Shown: piece after piece, positions 2,552 to 26,744 of the stretch | Layout: each line of letters opens with the position of its first letter | Numbering within the stretch: the stretch's first letter is position 1 | NCBI GenBank assembly: GCA_938034445.1 | Contig: CALHLD010000031.1 | Span: 1 to 34,142, forward strand | Origin: an uncultured archaeon | GTDB lineage: Archaea; Thermoproteota; Nitrososphaeria; JACIWG01 | Direction: 5' to 3' | Length of the DNA stretch: 34,142 nucleotides | Position numbers and translations under genes: made by a program | Notes under the pieces: generated by a model | What the model was told of the DNA's origin: nothing | Seen by the model: the letters and a program-made list of their open reading frames with translations, nothing else | Databases searched by the model: none

Positions 2552-3721
2552 CTAGTATTCTTTCTGTGGGTTTAGTAGTGTGAAGAATATTTTTACGCTT
2601 TCAATGTTTTCTTTGCTTCCTGTTATCTTCTCTAATACCCTTCCTTCAACTTCTGAAACGAATTCTCCTGTAAACTTTTGTGACACGCTTACTAGGTTGT
2701 CTACTAGGTCGAGGCATAGTGGGAGGTTTGTTGCCTCGTTGAAGAAGTTCTTTTGTCCAAGAAACTTTAGAAGTTTTTCTAAGCTTATTGATGATGGATA
2801 CTCTATTTCTGCTGGAGGAATGTGATCGTATGCTCTAACCTGCACTCTTCTCATTTCATCCAATATCTTCTTATCGTATCCTAGTATCTCGAAAGGCCTA
2901 TATGTTTTATCGAGAACTTCAACTTTTACTTTCTCAATATCTGTTTCTGGTGTAATAAGTGATGCAAGCATTGTGTAAAATTGTACTGGCTTATCACCTA
3001 AAAGTTCCTGGTAGCTGAAGTATGTGTTTTCGGGCATCATTGTTGAAAGGAGATGCTTGTCTATTATTGTCGTGAATGGTGTCCTTTTATCTTTTTGAGC
3101 AAGATATCCTCCTATTGCCCTAGTATGGCTTCTCTTTATCACTCCAACAGCTTTACCACTCTTCCTTAACTCTTCTGTTAGGTTAAAGGTTTCGTCTACA
3201 ATCTTGTCTTCTTCTGGACCATGTAGTCCAGACTTTCTCATCCTTTCAACCGGTATGAGGAAACTGTAGAAGCTTCCGTCCAAAATTAGGAGGTCACATT
3301 TGTCTAATGCTTCTAAAGCAAGTTTTCTCTCTAAGTATGTCGTTAATAGGCTGAAAAAGTATTTGCTCTTATCTTGGGAGAAAGCCTGTTTTCTCTTAAA
3401 AGTTCCAACCCTATAAAGTTCCCCCCTCTTCTCTATTCCCTTCAAAAGTATTAGTCCTGTAGCAAATACTCCATATCTTACACCTAAACGTTCGCTTAAG
3501 TTTGCACTTCTTGAACTGTCTACTGCTGCGACATCATATGTTTCATCATGTAATGTTAGAGAATGTATATGAGGTATTATTGTGTTTTTAACTTCCTTAA
3601 CCTTAGAAACAAACTCTTCTATAGCCTTAGCAAGTTTAATCGCCTCTTCTTCAGCACATTGGAAAAACTGGTGCTGTATGTCTGGCGGAAACTTTAGCCA
3701 ATCAACATACTCTTCATGCAT
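2552..3721 (-). CDS. nurA: NurA 5'-3' nuclease
   Basis: A 389-residue NurA-family nuclease. From the ATG at 3721 the catalytic carboxylates appear in the usual order: Asp68 in VAAVDSSRS, Asp148 in LLILDGSFYS, a lysine/arginine-rich strand VGVIKRS near 196, and Asp221 in TIIDKHLLS. NurA is a manganese-dependent nuclease that works with the HerA translocase to resect DNA ends for recombination. Here the start overlaps the herA stop, so translation is coupled. A TTG at 3730 would add three residues. Mre11 and Rad50, often in the same operon in thermophilic archaea, are not next to it. The family and pairing are secure. Confidence 0.93.
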   Translation of the reverse strand: MHEEYVDWLKFPPDIQHQFFQCAEEEAIKLAKAIEEFVSKVKEVKNTIIPHIHSLTLHDETYDVAAVDSSRSANLSERLGVRYGVFATGLILLKGIEKRGELYRVGTFKRKQAFSQDKSKYFFSLLTTYLERKLALEALDKCDLLILDGSFYSFLIPVERMRKSGLHGPEEDKIVDETFNLTEELRKSGKAVGVIKRSHTRAIGGYLAQKDKRTPFTTIIDKHLLSTMMPENTYFSYQELLGDKPVQFYTMLASLITPETDIEKVKVEVLDKTYRPFEILGYDKKILDEMRRVQVRAYDHIPPAEIEYPSSISLEKLLKFLGQKNFFNEATNLPLCLDLVDNLVSVSQKFTGEFVSEVEGRVLEKITGSKENIESVKIFFTLLNPQKEY

Positions 3722-16385: not shown

Positions 16386-16805
16386 ATGGTTAACATGGAT
16401 GAGGGAATGCTTATTTTGTCATTGATGGAGGAATCCGACTATGATTTGGAGAAGCTAAAAAGTTTAGTTAATGATAAAATTCTTTTGCTGGAAAAAAGGC
16501 TTGAGCGAATAAAGTTTATGGATGATGAAGAGTTTCTGGAACATGTTTCAAAAACAATTTTCGGTGTTGCCTCAAAAGAATACTATGTTTCAAAAGTCTC
16601 TGATGAGATTAGAATGTTTAATGGTGTTTTAAAAAGGATAGAATATTATCTAAGACTTAGTAGAGAAAATAGAAAGCTTTTCGACCACCTTATAAAGAGG
16701 TCTTTTAAAGGTAATGTTAGACGTGCCAAGAGGGCGTTTAATAGGCTTGCAGAAAACACTTATACTAAGAAACTTGAGTCATACAATAACCTTGGTTTTC
16801 AATGA
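16386..16805 (+). CDS. Helical protein of unknown function
   Basis: A 139-residue protein that I cannot place in a family. It is predicted almost wholly helical, with acidic N-terminal helices (EESDYDLEKLKSLVND, ILLLEKRLERIKFMDDEEFL) and a basic C-terminal part rich in Lys and Arg (KRSFKGNVRRAKRAFNRLAE) that could bind nucleic acid. There is no membrane segment or cysteine motif. Its stop codon at 16803-16805 lies inside the first strand of a large RNA stem (16794-16807), so the end of this gene and the folded RNA are linked. Confidence 0.65.
   Translation: MVNMDEGMLILSLMEESDYDLEKLKSLVNDKILLLEKRLERIKFMDDEEFLEHVSKTIFGVASKEYYVSKVSDEIRMFNGVLKRIEYYLRLSRENRKLFDHLIKRSFKGNVRRAKRAFNRLAENTYTKKLESYNNLGFQ
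16759..16767 (+). promoter_or_regulatory. TATA-like box before the structured RNA
   Basis: CTTATACTA is centred about 27-30 bp before the first stem at 16794. It lies inside the coding region of the 139-residue protein, so it may be a chance match. Confidence 0.25.
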
Positions 16806-16935
16806 CCATGTTAGTATCGATAACATTTTGAAACTTTTGTAGAAAAGTTTTTCCATCGGAACCCTTTTTCTGGTTCCTCATCTGGTGAGCCAAGAACCTA
16901 AAAAGGTTGATAGGTGATTTGGGGGTCAGAAAACC
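16794..16935 (+). ncRNA. Candidate structured RNA (multibranch, about 142 nt)
   Basis: A long-range stem closes the element: GGTTTTC (16794-16800) with GAAAACC (16929-16935), then GACC (16804-16807) with GGTC (16924-16927). Inside, hairpins follow almost without gaps: ATGTTA/TAACAT (16808-16826), AAACTTTT/AAAAGTTT with a GTAG loop (16831-16850), GGAACC/GGTTCC (16858-16877), CTCA/TGAG (16877-16889, sharing its first base with the previous stem) and AACCT/AGGTT with a 4-base loop (16895-16908). CCATC (16853-16857) can pair with GATAGG (16909-16914) around the last three, with one bulge. A T-rich tail follows at 16936-16953. No tRNA, rRNA, RNase P, SRP or guide-RNA box is recognised. It may be a free RNA, a 3' UTR element, or a leader of truD. 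Confidence 0.5.
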
Positions 16936-17062
16936 TTTATTTAAAATTTTCTTACACACTCTGTGCCTTTAATCTTATTTGAAGATAACGTCTCGGCTGT
17001 TTACGATATTGGTTAAACCTTAAATTTTGATTTTTGTTACTAAATTTGTATTGTGGTTTTCT

Positions 17063-18247
17063 ATGACTCCATCTAAGATTGAGCTGGAAAAGCGTTTGGG
17101 CATATTATACTATGTTTCCTCAACTGAAGGTATAGGTGGTATTATTAGAGGTTCTGTTGAAGATTTTATGGTTTTTGAGGATTCTGAAATACCTTTGGAT
17201 GCTAGTGGTTCACATCTTGTTCTTGTTATAGAAAAGAGGAATGTTACTACAGACTATGTTATAAGGTATATTTCCAGAGTTTTTGGCCTTGATAGGAAAT
17301 TTATTGGTTTTGCTGGAATAAAGGATTCTAGGGCTGTTGCCGTACAAAAATTTTCTATACCCTATAATGGTGAGATTGATGTTAGAAAACTTAATATTGA
17401 AGGAAAGGTTAGGGTTATTGAAACTTACACGTCTTCAAGAAAAATTAGGCTTGGCATGCTTAAAGGGAACGTTTTCCAGATTATTCTAAGGAACTGTAAT
17501 TTTAGAAGGGAGTTGGTTGAAGCTACATTAAGTGAACTGGATTCTTTAGGTTGTCCAAACTATTTTGGGTACCAAAGGTTTGGAACAAGAAGGTATAATA
17601 CTCATTTAATAGGATATCATATTTTGAGAGAAGATTATGTCTCCTTTCTTGAAGAGCTTGTCTACAAAGTGTATCCTAGTGAATCGAGTTTAGCTAAAGA
17701 ATCTAGGATCCTCGCTAAGGAGGGCTACCTTAGAGAAGCGTATAATATGATGCCAAAATCTCTTTGGGTTGAAAGAAAAGTTTTAGGTCTTATGTTAAAG
17801 AATCTTCCAGTTCAAAAGATTGTTAGAATTCTTGGAAGGAGTCTCATAAAATTTTATGTCAACGCTTACCAAAGCTACCTCTTTAACCTTATGCTTTCAG
17901 AGAGGATTAGAAGAGGTCTTCCCCTGAATAGGTGTGTTGAAGGTGATTTTGTTAAGGCTGGAGCGCCTGCTTTTCCCCTTTTAGGCTGTAAGTCGAAGTT
18001 TCCTACTGGAGAAGCTGGAGAAATTGTTAGAAGTGTTGTAGAAGTAGAAAATTTGGATCTTTCAAAGTTTAGGAATAAAGATTTGGGCTTGAAGGTTAAA
18101 GGTTCTCTTAGAAAGTTGAATTTGAATTATAAAGATTTAAGATACACTAGCAATGACGGCTCCATATGCTTTCATTTTTGGCTTGAAAAGGGCTGTTACG
18201 CTACTACTTTGCTTAGAGAATTTTGTAAAAACGAATTTTATATGTAA
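17063..18247 (+). CDS. truD: tRNA pseudouridine synthase TruD
   Basis: A 394-residue TruD/Pus7-family enzyme from the ATG at 17063; a TTG at 17027 would add 12 hydrophobic residues not typical of the family. It makes pseudouridine at position 13 of tRNAs and in archaea at related sites. Seen motifs are VEDFMVFE near 32-39, the catalytic GFAGIKDSRAVAVQ with Asp88, and NYFGYQRFG at 166-174. In the last catalytic stretch the usual threonine after the Asp loop reads Ala (AVAVQ), a mild change. The archaeal enzymes carry an insertion domain, and the length here fits. It stands alone, with the structured RNA about 130 bp upstream. Confidence 0.92.
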   Translation: MTPSKIELEKRLGILYYVSSTEGIGGIIRGSVEDFMVFEDSEIPLDASGSHLVLVIEKRNVTTDYVIRYISRVFGLDRKFIGFAGIKDSRAVAVQKFSIPYNGEIDVRKLNIEGKVRVIETYTSSRKIRLGMLKGNVFQIILRNCNFRRELVEATLSELDSLGCPNYFGYQRFGTRRYNTHLIGYHILREDYVSFLEELVYKVYPSESSLAKESRILAKEGYLREAYNMMPKSLWVERKVLGLMLKNLPVQKIVRILGRSLIKFYVNAYQSYLFNLMLSERIRRGLPLNRCVEGDFVKAGAPAFPLLGCKSKFPTGEAGEIVRSVVEVENLDLSKFRNKDLGLKVKGSLRKLNLNYKDLRYTSNDGSICFHFWLEKGCYATTLLREFCKNEFYM

Positions 18248-24366: not shown

Positions 24367-26744
24367 CTTCTACGCCCCATAATATAAAGTATTAGTGAAA
24401 CTCCAACTATTGCTCCAACTATTAAAAAGGTTTCTATTCTCTCAACTGGCAGTATACTTTGGCTCACCACCTCAAACTCTTCTTCGTCGACTGCATCTTG
24501 GACTTTCACTCTTATTTTATATTTTCCAACTTCTGCTGGCGCTATTATCTCATCCTTTACTATTCCAGATGCACCTATTGGAATAGATTTAAGGGGAGTT
24601 GATATTCCGTCCCTGTTAATCTCTATTAATGCAACGGTTGTTCCCAATGGAGGTGGTGCCAATCTTATTTCTATAGGAATACTCTCTGATGGGCTGACTC
24701 TTGTTTTAGAAATTGTAAGGTCAACATTTATTATAGTTTTTATAACAGAAAATTGTGCAGTTGATATTGTACTATTTTGATAAACTATTGCTAGAAAATA
24801 TTTTCCCATCTGCAAATTTTTCAGTGTGGTCAATGCTTCCCCATCCAATATTACTACATCTTTACTTTGAACATTCTTTCCTGTTTCCTGATTTCTAACT
24901 AGTAGTGTTACGTTTAAACTTATTTTTTCAGAGGAAAAAATCTTTACTTGAAATTCACTATTTTCCTCTATATTTTTTGGCAATAATATATTAAATTTTG
25001 GGCTTATGACTTCAAATTCCTTTTCTGCCTTTAACTTTTTAGAAGGTACAGTAAAGATTATCTTATTTTTTCCCGTTTGTTTCTCTATTTTTAGTTCGAT
25101 TAAGTTTTCTCCAGTTTTAACCTCAATACTTTTGTTTAAAATTAATGTGTTTCCGTAATATTGTATTAGTCTTCCATTAAACTTTAAATCTAAACCCTCT
25201 TCCCCTAACACATTTATTTTGAATTTTGTTGTAGTGTTGGCTAAAACTTTTTCCGGCCCCTCTATTACTATAGTTGGCATTCGAATAACTTTAACTTGTA
25301 CACGTTGGCTTTCAACTTCATTTAAGCCAATTCTTATTACTGCTCTTAATATGTTTGTTCCTGCTGGTAGTTCTAGGTCACAATATGCTTCCCCTTCATA
25401 AACCTCTATACTCTTTAACGCAATCCATATTCCCCCCGTATACTTTTCTATTGTAATTGGAAGTGTTAGATTAAATTTTGGTATTGTTGTAACCTTTACT
25501 TTAAAAGTTTCTCCCTCAAATACATTTTCTGGTAAACCATCTATTTTTAGAATCAGATTATTTAAAATAGCTGAAGCGCTAATTATTCTAATTTTAACTT
25601 CGTTACTGTAAAAGTTTTTTTCTTCAGCTGTAACATATGCTCTTAACGTTATAACTTCTGTTGGGTTTTCTGTTAAAATAAAAATTCTTAGAGGTATCTC
25701 AAGTATGGGCTCAATAATGTAAACTGTTTCCTTTTTTAATAGGTTGCCATTTTTAACTATTTCTATTGTAAGCGTACTTATGGTCGATAGAGCCTTTGAG
25801 GGTGTTACTTTTATTTTTGCAATTATTTGGTCTCCATTTATTATTGTTGTCTTGTTTATTGAAAGATTGAGTTCTGGTCTAACTAGGTCTAGGGTTGTTG
25901 AGCTTAGGCTTCCGTATGAGAAGTAAAGATTTTCCATCATATATGTTATATTAGATGTAATATAGTACGCTCCCTCTTCTAGAATTAATGTTTTAATTAA
26001 AACCTTTGTACTATAGAATTGTTGCGGGTCTATATTTCCAATGTTCTGTGTGTATACTAGTGTTTTGTTAAAATATATGAAAAGTTTAACATTTTCTAGT
26101 TGAAGTTGGAAGAGATTTTCTATTCTAACATATAGTTCTATGTCTGAACCCTGCATTATTACCTTATTTTTTACACCATCGGGATATCCGATATCTATTC
26201 TTACAAGTTCCTTGTTAAATAGTGTATCATATCCGAATGTTTTTATTTGCTCTAAATTAAATGATGTTTTTATTGTCTCTCCCCTTTCTACAGGTATCAA
26301 TGTTAATGTAATGTTAAATTTGTCACCAGTGTTTATTGAAAGTGGTACTGTGTACTTTGTTTTTAAAACAATTTCTGTAATATTCTTATTTATTACTCCA
26401 ACATACCATATACCTGAATCAAGTTTTCCAATTTTTAATTGCAAGTATACTGCAATATTGCCTACATAATTAGAATATACTGAAGAAATCCTCGTGTAAA
26501 GGTCGTATTCGGCTCCAGCTAATAGTATCTCGTTTGTTTCTAAGCTTACTCTTAGAGAAAGTACTGATTTTCCTATAAAGATTGGTGGAAGATCTCTCTC
26601 AACTTTCACTATACTCGCCTGGCCTCCGTGAACTTTTCCTAGATGAGGGTAAGATGATATGAGCGTTAGAAGCATTAAAGTTATTAAAATAGTTAGTCTT
26701 GCTAACTTTTTTTCATCCAATTTTTTTGTATCAAATATTCCCAT
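24363..26744 (-). CDS. Large surface protein linked to the archaellum operon
   Basis: A 793-residue protein I cannot assign to a named family. It has a basic start and a hydrophobic stretch at about 15-32 (signal peptide or anchor), then about 720 residues of beta-rich outer region that look like a string of Ig-like or CARDB-like domains (repeated patterns such as VLEGEAYCDLELPAG, IPIEIRLAPPP, GKYKIRVKV), and a C-terminal membrane helix at about 768-788 ending in MGRRR. Few cysteines are seen. It starts 15 bp after arlJ with a good GGAGGT site and runs into the winged-helix gene with a 4-base overlap. It may anchor or surround the motor in the space under the S-layer; that is inference. Confidence 0.7.
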   Translation of the reverse strand: MGIFDTKKLDEKKLARLTILITLMLLTLISSYPHLGKVHGGQASIVKVERDLPPIFIGKSVLSLRVSLETNEILLAGAEYDLYTRISSVYSNYVGNIAVYLQLKIGKLDSGIWYVGVINKNITEIVLKTKYTVPLSINTGDKFNITLTLIPVERGETIKTSFNLEQIKTFGYDTLFNKELVRIDIGYPDGVKNKVIMQGSDIELYVRIENLFQLQLENVKLFIYFNKTLVYTQNIGNIDPQQFYSTKVLIKTLILEEGAYYITSNITYMMENLYFSYGSLSSTTLDLVRPELNLSINKTTIINGDQIIAKIKVTPSKALSTISTLTIEIVKNGNLLKKETVYIIEPILEIPLRIFILTENPTEVITLRAYVTAEEKNFYSNEVKIRIISASAILNNLILKIDGLPENVFEGETFKVKVTTIPKFNLTLPITIEKYTGGIWIALKSIEVYEGEAYCDLELPAGTNILRAVIRIGLNEVESQRVQVKVIRMPTIVIEGPEKVLANTTTKFKINVLGEEGLDLKFNGRLIQYYGNTLILNKSIEVKTGENLIELKIEKQTGKNKIIFTVPSKKLKAEKEFEVISPKFNILLPKNIEENSEFQVKIFSSEKISLNVTLLVRNQETGKNVQSKDVVILDGEALTTLKNLQMGKYFLAIVYQNSTISTAQFSVIKTIINVDLTISKTRVSPSESIPIEIRLAPPPLGTTVALIEINRDGISTPLKSIPIGASGIVKDEIIAPAEVGKYKIRVKVQDAVDEEEFEVVSQSILPVERIETFLIVGAIVGVSLILYIMGRRR

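Follow-up and report, generated by a model that had tools for sequence, protein, structure and literature searches.

A predicted minus-strand antisense RNA gene beside truD in a Nitrososphaeria archaeon, with a seed complementary to the starts of a family of substrate-binding protein mRNAs

Introduction

In an uncultured archaeon of the Nitrososphaeria, a region dense in inverted repeats lies between a small gene and truD, and it raises the question of which RNA is encoded there, from which strand, and to what end. The window in which it was found, meaning the whole stretch of 34,142 nucleotides that was analysed, comes from a draft genome of 1.8 Mb (G000), of which it forms one contig. We compared this genome with three congeners (G001, G002 and G003) and with one genome of the sister genus (G004), the order being represented by only these five genomes in the comparison set. 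The upstream gene (16386..16805, + strand) encodes 139 amino acids without a Pfam match and ends before the sRNA predicted here, while truD (17063..18247, + strand; PF01142, E 2e-103) is divergent from it; both lie outside the sRNA gene. A longer and diverged relative of the 139-aa gene (42% identity) is found in G001 (L101, contig C64) with no sRNA adjoining. We searched beside this relative for a counterpart of the element and it was absent, and the truD locus of G001, which we also inspected, is without it.

We will argue that the element is probably, judging from its sequence, a minus-strand gene for a small antisense RNA that acts in trans on the mRNAs of a family of Tat-exported substrate-binding proteins (SBPs). 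The complementarity, its register, its recurrence, its conservation and the folds are all observed directly, and they are presented in turn.

The fold and its strand

The first-pass annotation had described 16794-16935 as a multibranch RNA of the + strand, in which a closing stem encloses five hairpins. The inverted repeats are present in the sequence as claimed, and for the + strand 142-mer the folding energy is -42.0 kcal/mol, against -31.9 +- 3.8 for its shuffles (z -2.64; 1 of 200 shuffles was as good). When the window was cut into 239 non-overlapping 142-nt tiles, 7 of them reached z <= -2.6 on this strand, so that the + strand fold alone is a mild outlier. The minus strand of the same region does better: its z is -3.67, and in the tile test it comes to about -3.5, with none of the 239 minus-strand tiles as low. 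There is a real fold here, which had been read on the wrong strand. Other low-energy tiles of the window are 25987-26128 (+, z -3.9) and 3125-3266 (-, z -3.5), both inside coding regions.

Conservation bears on the architecture itself. Among the congeners, DNA comparison matched the region upstream of truD in G003 only, where the similarity covers 16849-16954 (93%) and the upstream coding region, the stretch between the two being without similarity. Since this similarity omits them, neither the closing stem (GGTTTTC/GAAAACC, 16794-16800 paired with 16929-16935) nor the two hairpins on the left (16806-16848) are conserved.

A segment shared with the starts of SBP genes

A pattern search of the five genomes matched the stretch 16885-16914 (+) elsewhere too, both in non-coding copies and at the 5' ends of genes. 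The products of these genes start with MSxEPKKVDRRSFLYVGLGAVALVAIGAAAY, which by eye is a Tat-type signal with its twin arginine. An N-terminal profile search retrieved the family in all five genomes, in a diverged form in G004, and 10 of the 11 full proteins tested match SBP_bac_1 and SBP_bac_8. On contig C32 of G000, the SBP gene is followed by two genes that look by eye like MalF/MalG-type permeases; directly upstream of this gene, which is also the best predicted target, and divergent from it, lie genes that look by eye like Cas4 and Cas1 (L042, 5215-7001).

The identity of the + strand to the mRNA starts means that the minus strand is complementary to them. The seed of the truD-adjacent site of the window, which we call locus B and which is present in G000 and G003, pairs with 15 of the 18 family starts at -28.5 to -46.6 kcal/mol, always in one register that runs from the start codon to codon 10. 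Against 30 other gene starts of the window, the background has a mean of -13.2 and a minimum of -23.4 kcal/mol, and 200 shuffled seeds, each confronted with all 18 starts, gave a mean of -14.8 and a best single value of -29.6. The complementarity to separately encoded targets, by which a trans-acting antisense sRNA is recognized, exceeds chance. The predicted targets of locus B that are visible in G000 are the SBP genes of contigs C32 (-40.5), C51 (-35.3) and C34 (-30.0), all of them on other contigs than the sRNA gene. A further SBP of the family, on contig C22 (L081, 2-1393), is likely a fourth target in this genome, its start region being out of sight because the gene runs off the contig start. 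Codons 2-10 of the targets were also tested for an excess of synonymous conservation, and none was found, which counts against the antisense reading.

Non-coding copies of the seed were found at two further loci. Locus A, which in G000, G001 and G003 lies 3' of a DUF429 gene, consists of a box A, the seed and, directly after it, a hairpin of 15-16 pairs that is kept in the three species (z -5.1 and -6.2). Its stem shows paired changes at pair 9 (G-C or A-U) and at pair 15 (A-U or C-G), plus one mismatch or bulge. Locus C, in G001 only, has a 13 bp stem (GGGCCUGUCUG...CAGACAGGUCC) that bears the seed in its loop and is followed by UUU; its fold has z -4.1 with the predicted ends and 0.6 with differently placed ones, and the former value is somewhat favoured because these ends were chosen by the box A rule described below and by the visible stem.

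The three loci thus share one seed within unrelated flanks and scaffolds. The seed of locus B is identical at locus C and in G003 and near-identical at locus A, where G replaces A at two places, and the seed of locus A prefers two genes of G001 (-37.2 and -33.4 kcal/mol). The seed is fully conserved across three congeners at A and two at B. We found no seed copy in G002 (85% complete) or in G004, which speaks against the antisense sRNA. There was likewise no orthologue of locus A in G004, and no equivalent antisense copy of the SBP start for G004 or for the second SBP subfamily. The scan of the window with Rfam gave only a tRNA at the gathering score, and loci A and C gave no match. In G000, a TnpB-like transposase fragment (L037, 4039-4446, contig C7) adjoins locus A, and a small neighbouring gene, which encodes 88 aa in G001, G003 and G004, is here left with some 19 aa, likely the mark of an IS605-type insertion.

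The predicted minus-strand gene

The T-rich stretch that had been noticed after the stem (16936-16953) is indeed present, and on the minus strand it reads as a conserved candidate promoter element. It contains a predicted archaeal box A, TTTAAATA (16938..16945, minus strand), which is identical with its flanks in G003. In the minus-strand alignment of locus B between G000 and G003, the conserved AAGAAAATTTTAAATAAAG, comprising box A and its flanks, is followed by about 12 variable bases and then by a second conserved block, which begins just before the predicted start and extends as far as about 16849. A distance of 23 nt beyond box A leads to 16914 (+-3), the first base of the antisense segment, as the predicted 5' end of the RNA, and we set the 3' end at about 16849, where the conservation with G003 stops. 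The earlier suggestion of a free RNA is supported in kind, except that the predicted sRNA is encoded by the other strand and, with some 66 nt (16849..16914, minus strand), is about half as long. Its 5' part is the 29-nt antisense seed CCTATCAACCTTTTTAGGTTCTTGGCTCA (16886..16914), complementary to codons 1-10 of the SBP mRNAs, and its 3' half carries the hairpin GGAACC-AGAAAAAG-GGTTCC (16858..16877), whose arms are identical in G003 and whose loop varies.

The same rule of distance between box and start was applied to the other loci. In all three species with locus A, the predicted start coincides with the opening bases of the core seed; at locus C, where the box is TTATATA, it falls at the foot of the 13 bp stem. 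The box itself is conserved at a fitting distance at A and B. This agreement in box A spacing across three unrelated scaffolds is our main argument for the minus strand, and it is an argument from consensus, since elements like TTTAAATA are common in AT-rich DNA. A scan for promoters and terminators of the bacterial type gave nothing useful and no clear terminator of this type at locus B.

As for the structure of the RNA, the minus-strand fold of 16849-16917 has z -2.8 in both G000 and G003, with the seed paired to the 3' arm. By itself, the 3' hairpin has -10.8 kcal/mol in one species and -10.9 in the other; over the whole sRNA, masking of the seed gives a more stable fold than this lone hairpin. 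We also observed a kink-turn sequence pattern, CCA-GAU-GA-GGAACC...GGUUCC-GA-UGG, which involves 16853-16855 and 16883-16885 and is identical in the two species; the whole RNA, however, has an alternative fold of greater stability, and the pattern was not seen at loci A and C. Upon binding of the target, the RNA would switch from the seed-masking fold to the lone hairpin.

Alternative explanations

The same observations could be accounted for in other ways. The segment corresponds to the first ten SBP codons, and the non-coding copies might simply be relics of duplicated SBP genes, that is, dead 5' fragments scattered in intergenic space. Read in that frame, A and B differ in part by synonymous changes, and the targets are without special codon conservation, which suits such fragments. 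However, three separate loci end at the same codon, right before the strongly conserved RRSFLY, the seed of locus A has remained unchanged across species although its flanks diverged, and the seed is joined to conserved hairpins and to box A. We consider relics unlikely as an explanation of the loci as they now stand; as the evolutionary origin of the sRNA, a relic may be what is seen. It could also be imagined that the + strand yields an RNA, free or within the 3' UTR belonging to the 139-aa gene, in which a copy of the SBP mRNA start serves as a decoy and diverts any factor that binds the mRNAs themselves, since this strand is exactly identical to the mRNA starts and folds better than its shuffles. 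The conserved box A and its spacing indicate the minus strand, though, which also folds better, and conservation is lacking in the left half of the + strand fold, making a decoy quite improbable.

The multibranch RNA of the + strand, seen as a truD leader or as a 3' UTR RNA, retains the z of -2.64 in its favour, but it lacks its closing stem and its left hairpins in G003, and we give it very little credence. As a riboswitch-like leader of truD it fails on its junction, which is not conserved, and on the recurrence of the conserved segment at loci without truD. As a processed 3' UTR it meets the same difficulty with the junction, the conserved parts reading as a promoter, an antisense seed and a hairpin on the minus strand. 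A known Rfam riboswitch was considered as the truD leader and rejected, with no match at the gathering score, a + strand structure that is not conserved in G003 and an absence at the truD of G001. Finally, a short + strand ORF for the decapeptide MSQEPKKVDR is favoured by the stop codon that comes next in both species with locus B (TGA in G000, TAA in G003), yet at loci A and C the frame continues into unrelated codons and a one-base indel is found among the A copies just past the segment, so that this last reading is hardly believable.

Proposed mechanism and significance

With the antisense sRNA as the preferred reading, the following sequence of events can be proposed. From the box A at 16945-16938, transcription would start at about 16914, and the first 29 nt of the RNA would form base pairs over codons 1-10, start codon included, in the mRNAs of sugar-type ABC transporter SBPs. 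The resulting duplex would keep the ribosome off these short-leader mRNAs and block translation initiation, an action that we propose by analogy with the argument made for sRNA162 (PMC3510493). One sRNA would in this way jointly lower several sugar-type SBPs. In the remainder of the molecule, the hairpin would either mask the seed or fold alone once the target has taken up the seed. Loci A and C would be two further genes with the same seed, for which the same action is predicted. Transcription, the RNA ends, repression and a controlling signal are thus what we infer.

More tentatively, and with somewhat less than even confidence, we suggest that the three loci form one sRNA family, in which a long antisense seed is shared by three scaffolds (a tail hairpin, a self-masking hairpin and a seed in a loop), each apparently derived from a captured inverted copy of the target start. 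The common start encoding the Tat signal would then serve as a shared address for the coordinated repression of the uptake repertoire.

To our knowledge, targets are known for few archaeal sRNAs, and for none in this Nitrososphaeria lineage. Here, the sequence is enough to deduce the target set, the pairing site and how the RNA likely acts, with one address common to a paralogous uptake family. Family-wide translational control in archaea could be tested directly on this case, which also hints at the birth of sRNAs from inverted copies of target starts.

Comparison with known systems

The GcvB sRNA of enterobacteria reportedly acts on many ABC-transporter mRNAs, chiefly those of substrate-binding proteins, by pairing around their translation starts, and lowers them jointly. 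It does so through a short G/U-rich region that pairs with C/A-rich sites, and it requires Hfq. The likeness would lie in one sRNA being directed at many SBP mRNA starts, the pairing of locus B being predicted from sequence. In contrast to GcvB, locus B has a 29-nt near-perfect antisense segment over the coding start, the two have no sequence relation, and they belong to different domains of life; Rfam gave no match to GcvB in the window or for loci A and C. The sRNA of locus B may therefore work like GcvB without being a member of its family. The GcvB study (Sharma et al. 2007, PMC2045133) is among the works referenced in PMC3536696.

Three archaeal sRNAs offer further points of comparison. 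In Haloferax volcanii, deletion of s479 raises several ABC-transporter proteins, several substrate-binding proteins included; this RNA is encoded in a CRISPR locus and Cas-dependent, and its predicted contact is a 9-nt consensus whose best sites are inside the znuC1 coding region (PMC8155600). It resembles the RNA proposed here as an archaeal sRNA tied to substrate-binding proteins, and it differs by its short contact, its CRISPR origin and its Cas dependence. The trans-acting sRNA162 of Methanosarcina mazei covers the ribosome binding site and the translation start of its target, and its single-stranded linker pairs with a transcription-factor mRNA (PMC3510493). It is thus also archaeal and start-covering, but without a family of paralogous targets. 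Finally, sRNA132 of Haloferax volcanii is tied to ABC-transporter operons and is phosphate specific (PMC6560208). It shares with our candidate the link between an archaeal sRNA and ABC transporters, and it differs by its positive role and its predicted pairing with the 3' UTR. As far as they are described, none of GcvB, s479, sRNA132 and sRNA162 pairs through a long, near-perfect antisense seed with the coding starts of an entire family of paralogues. The element of locus B would most likely belong to the trans-acting antisense sRNAs, a class that is already known, and its novel part would be the long seed that addresses a whole family.
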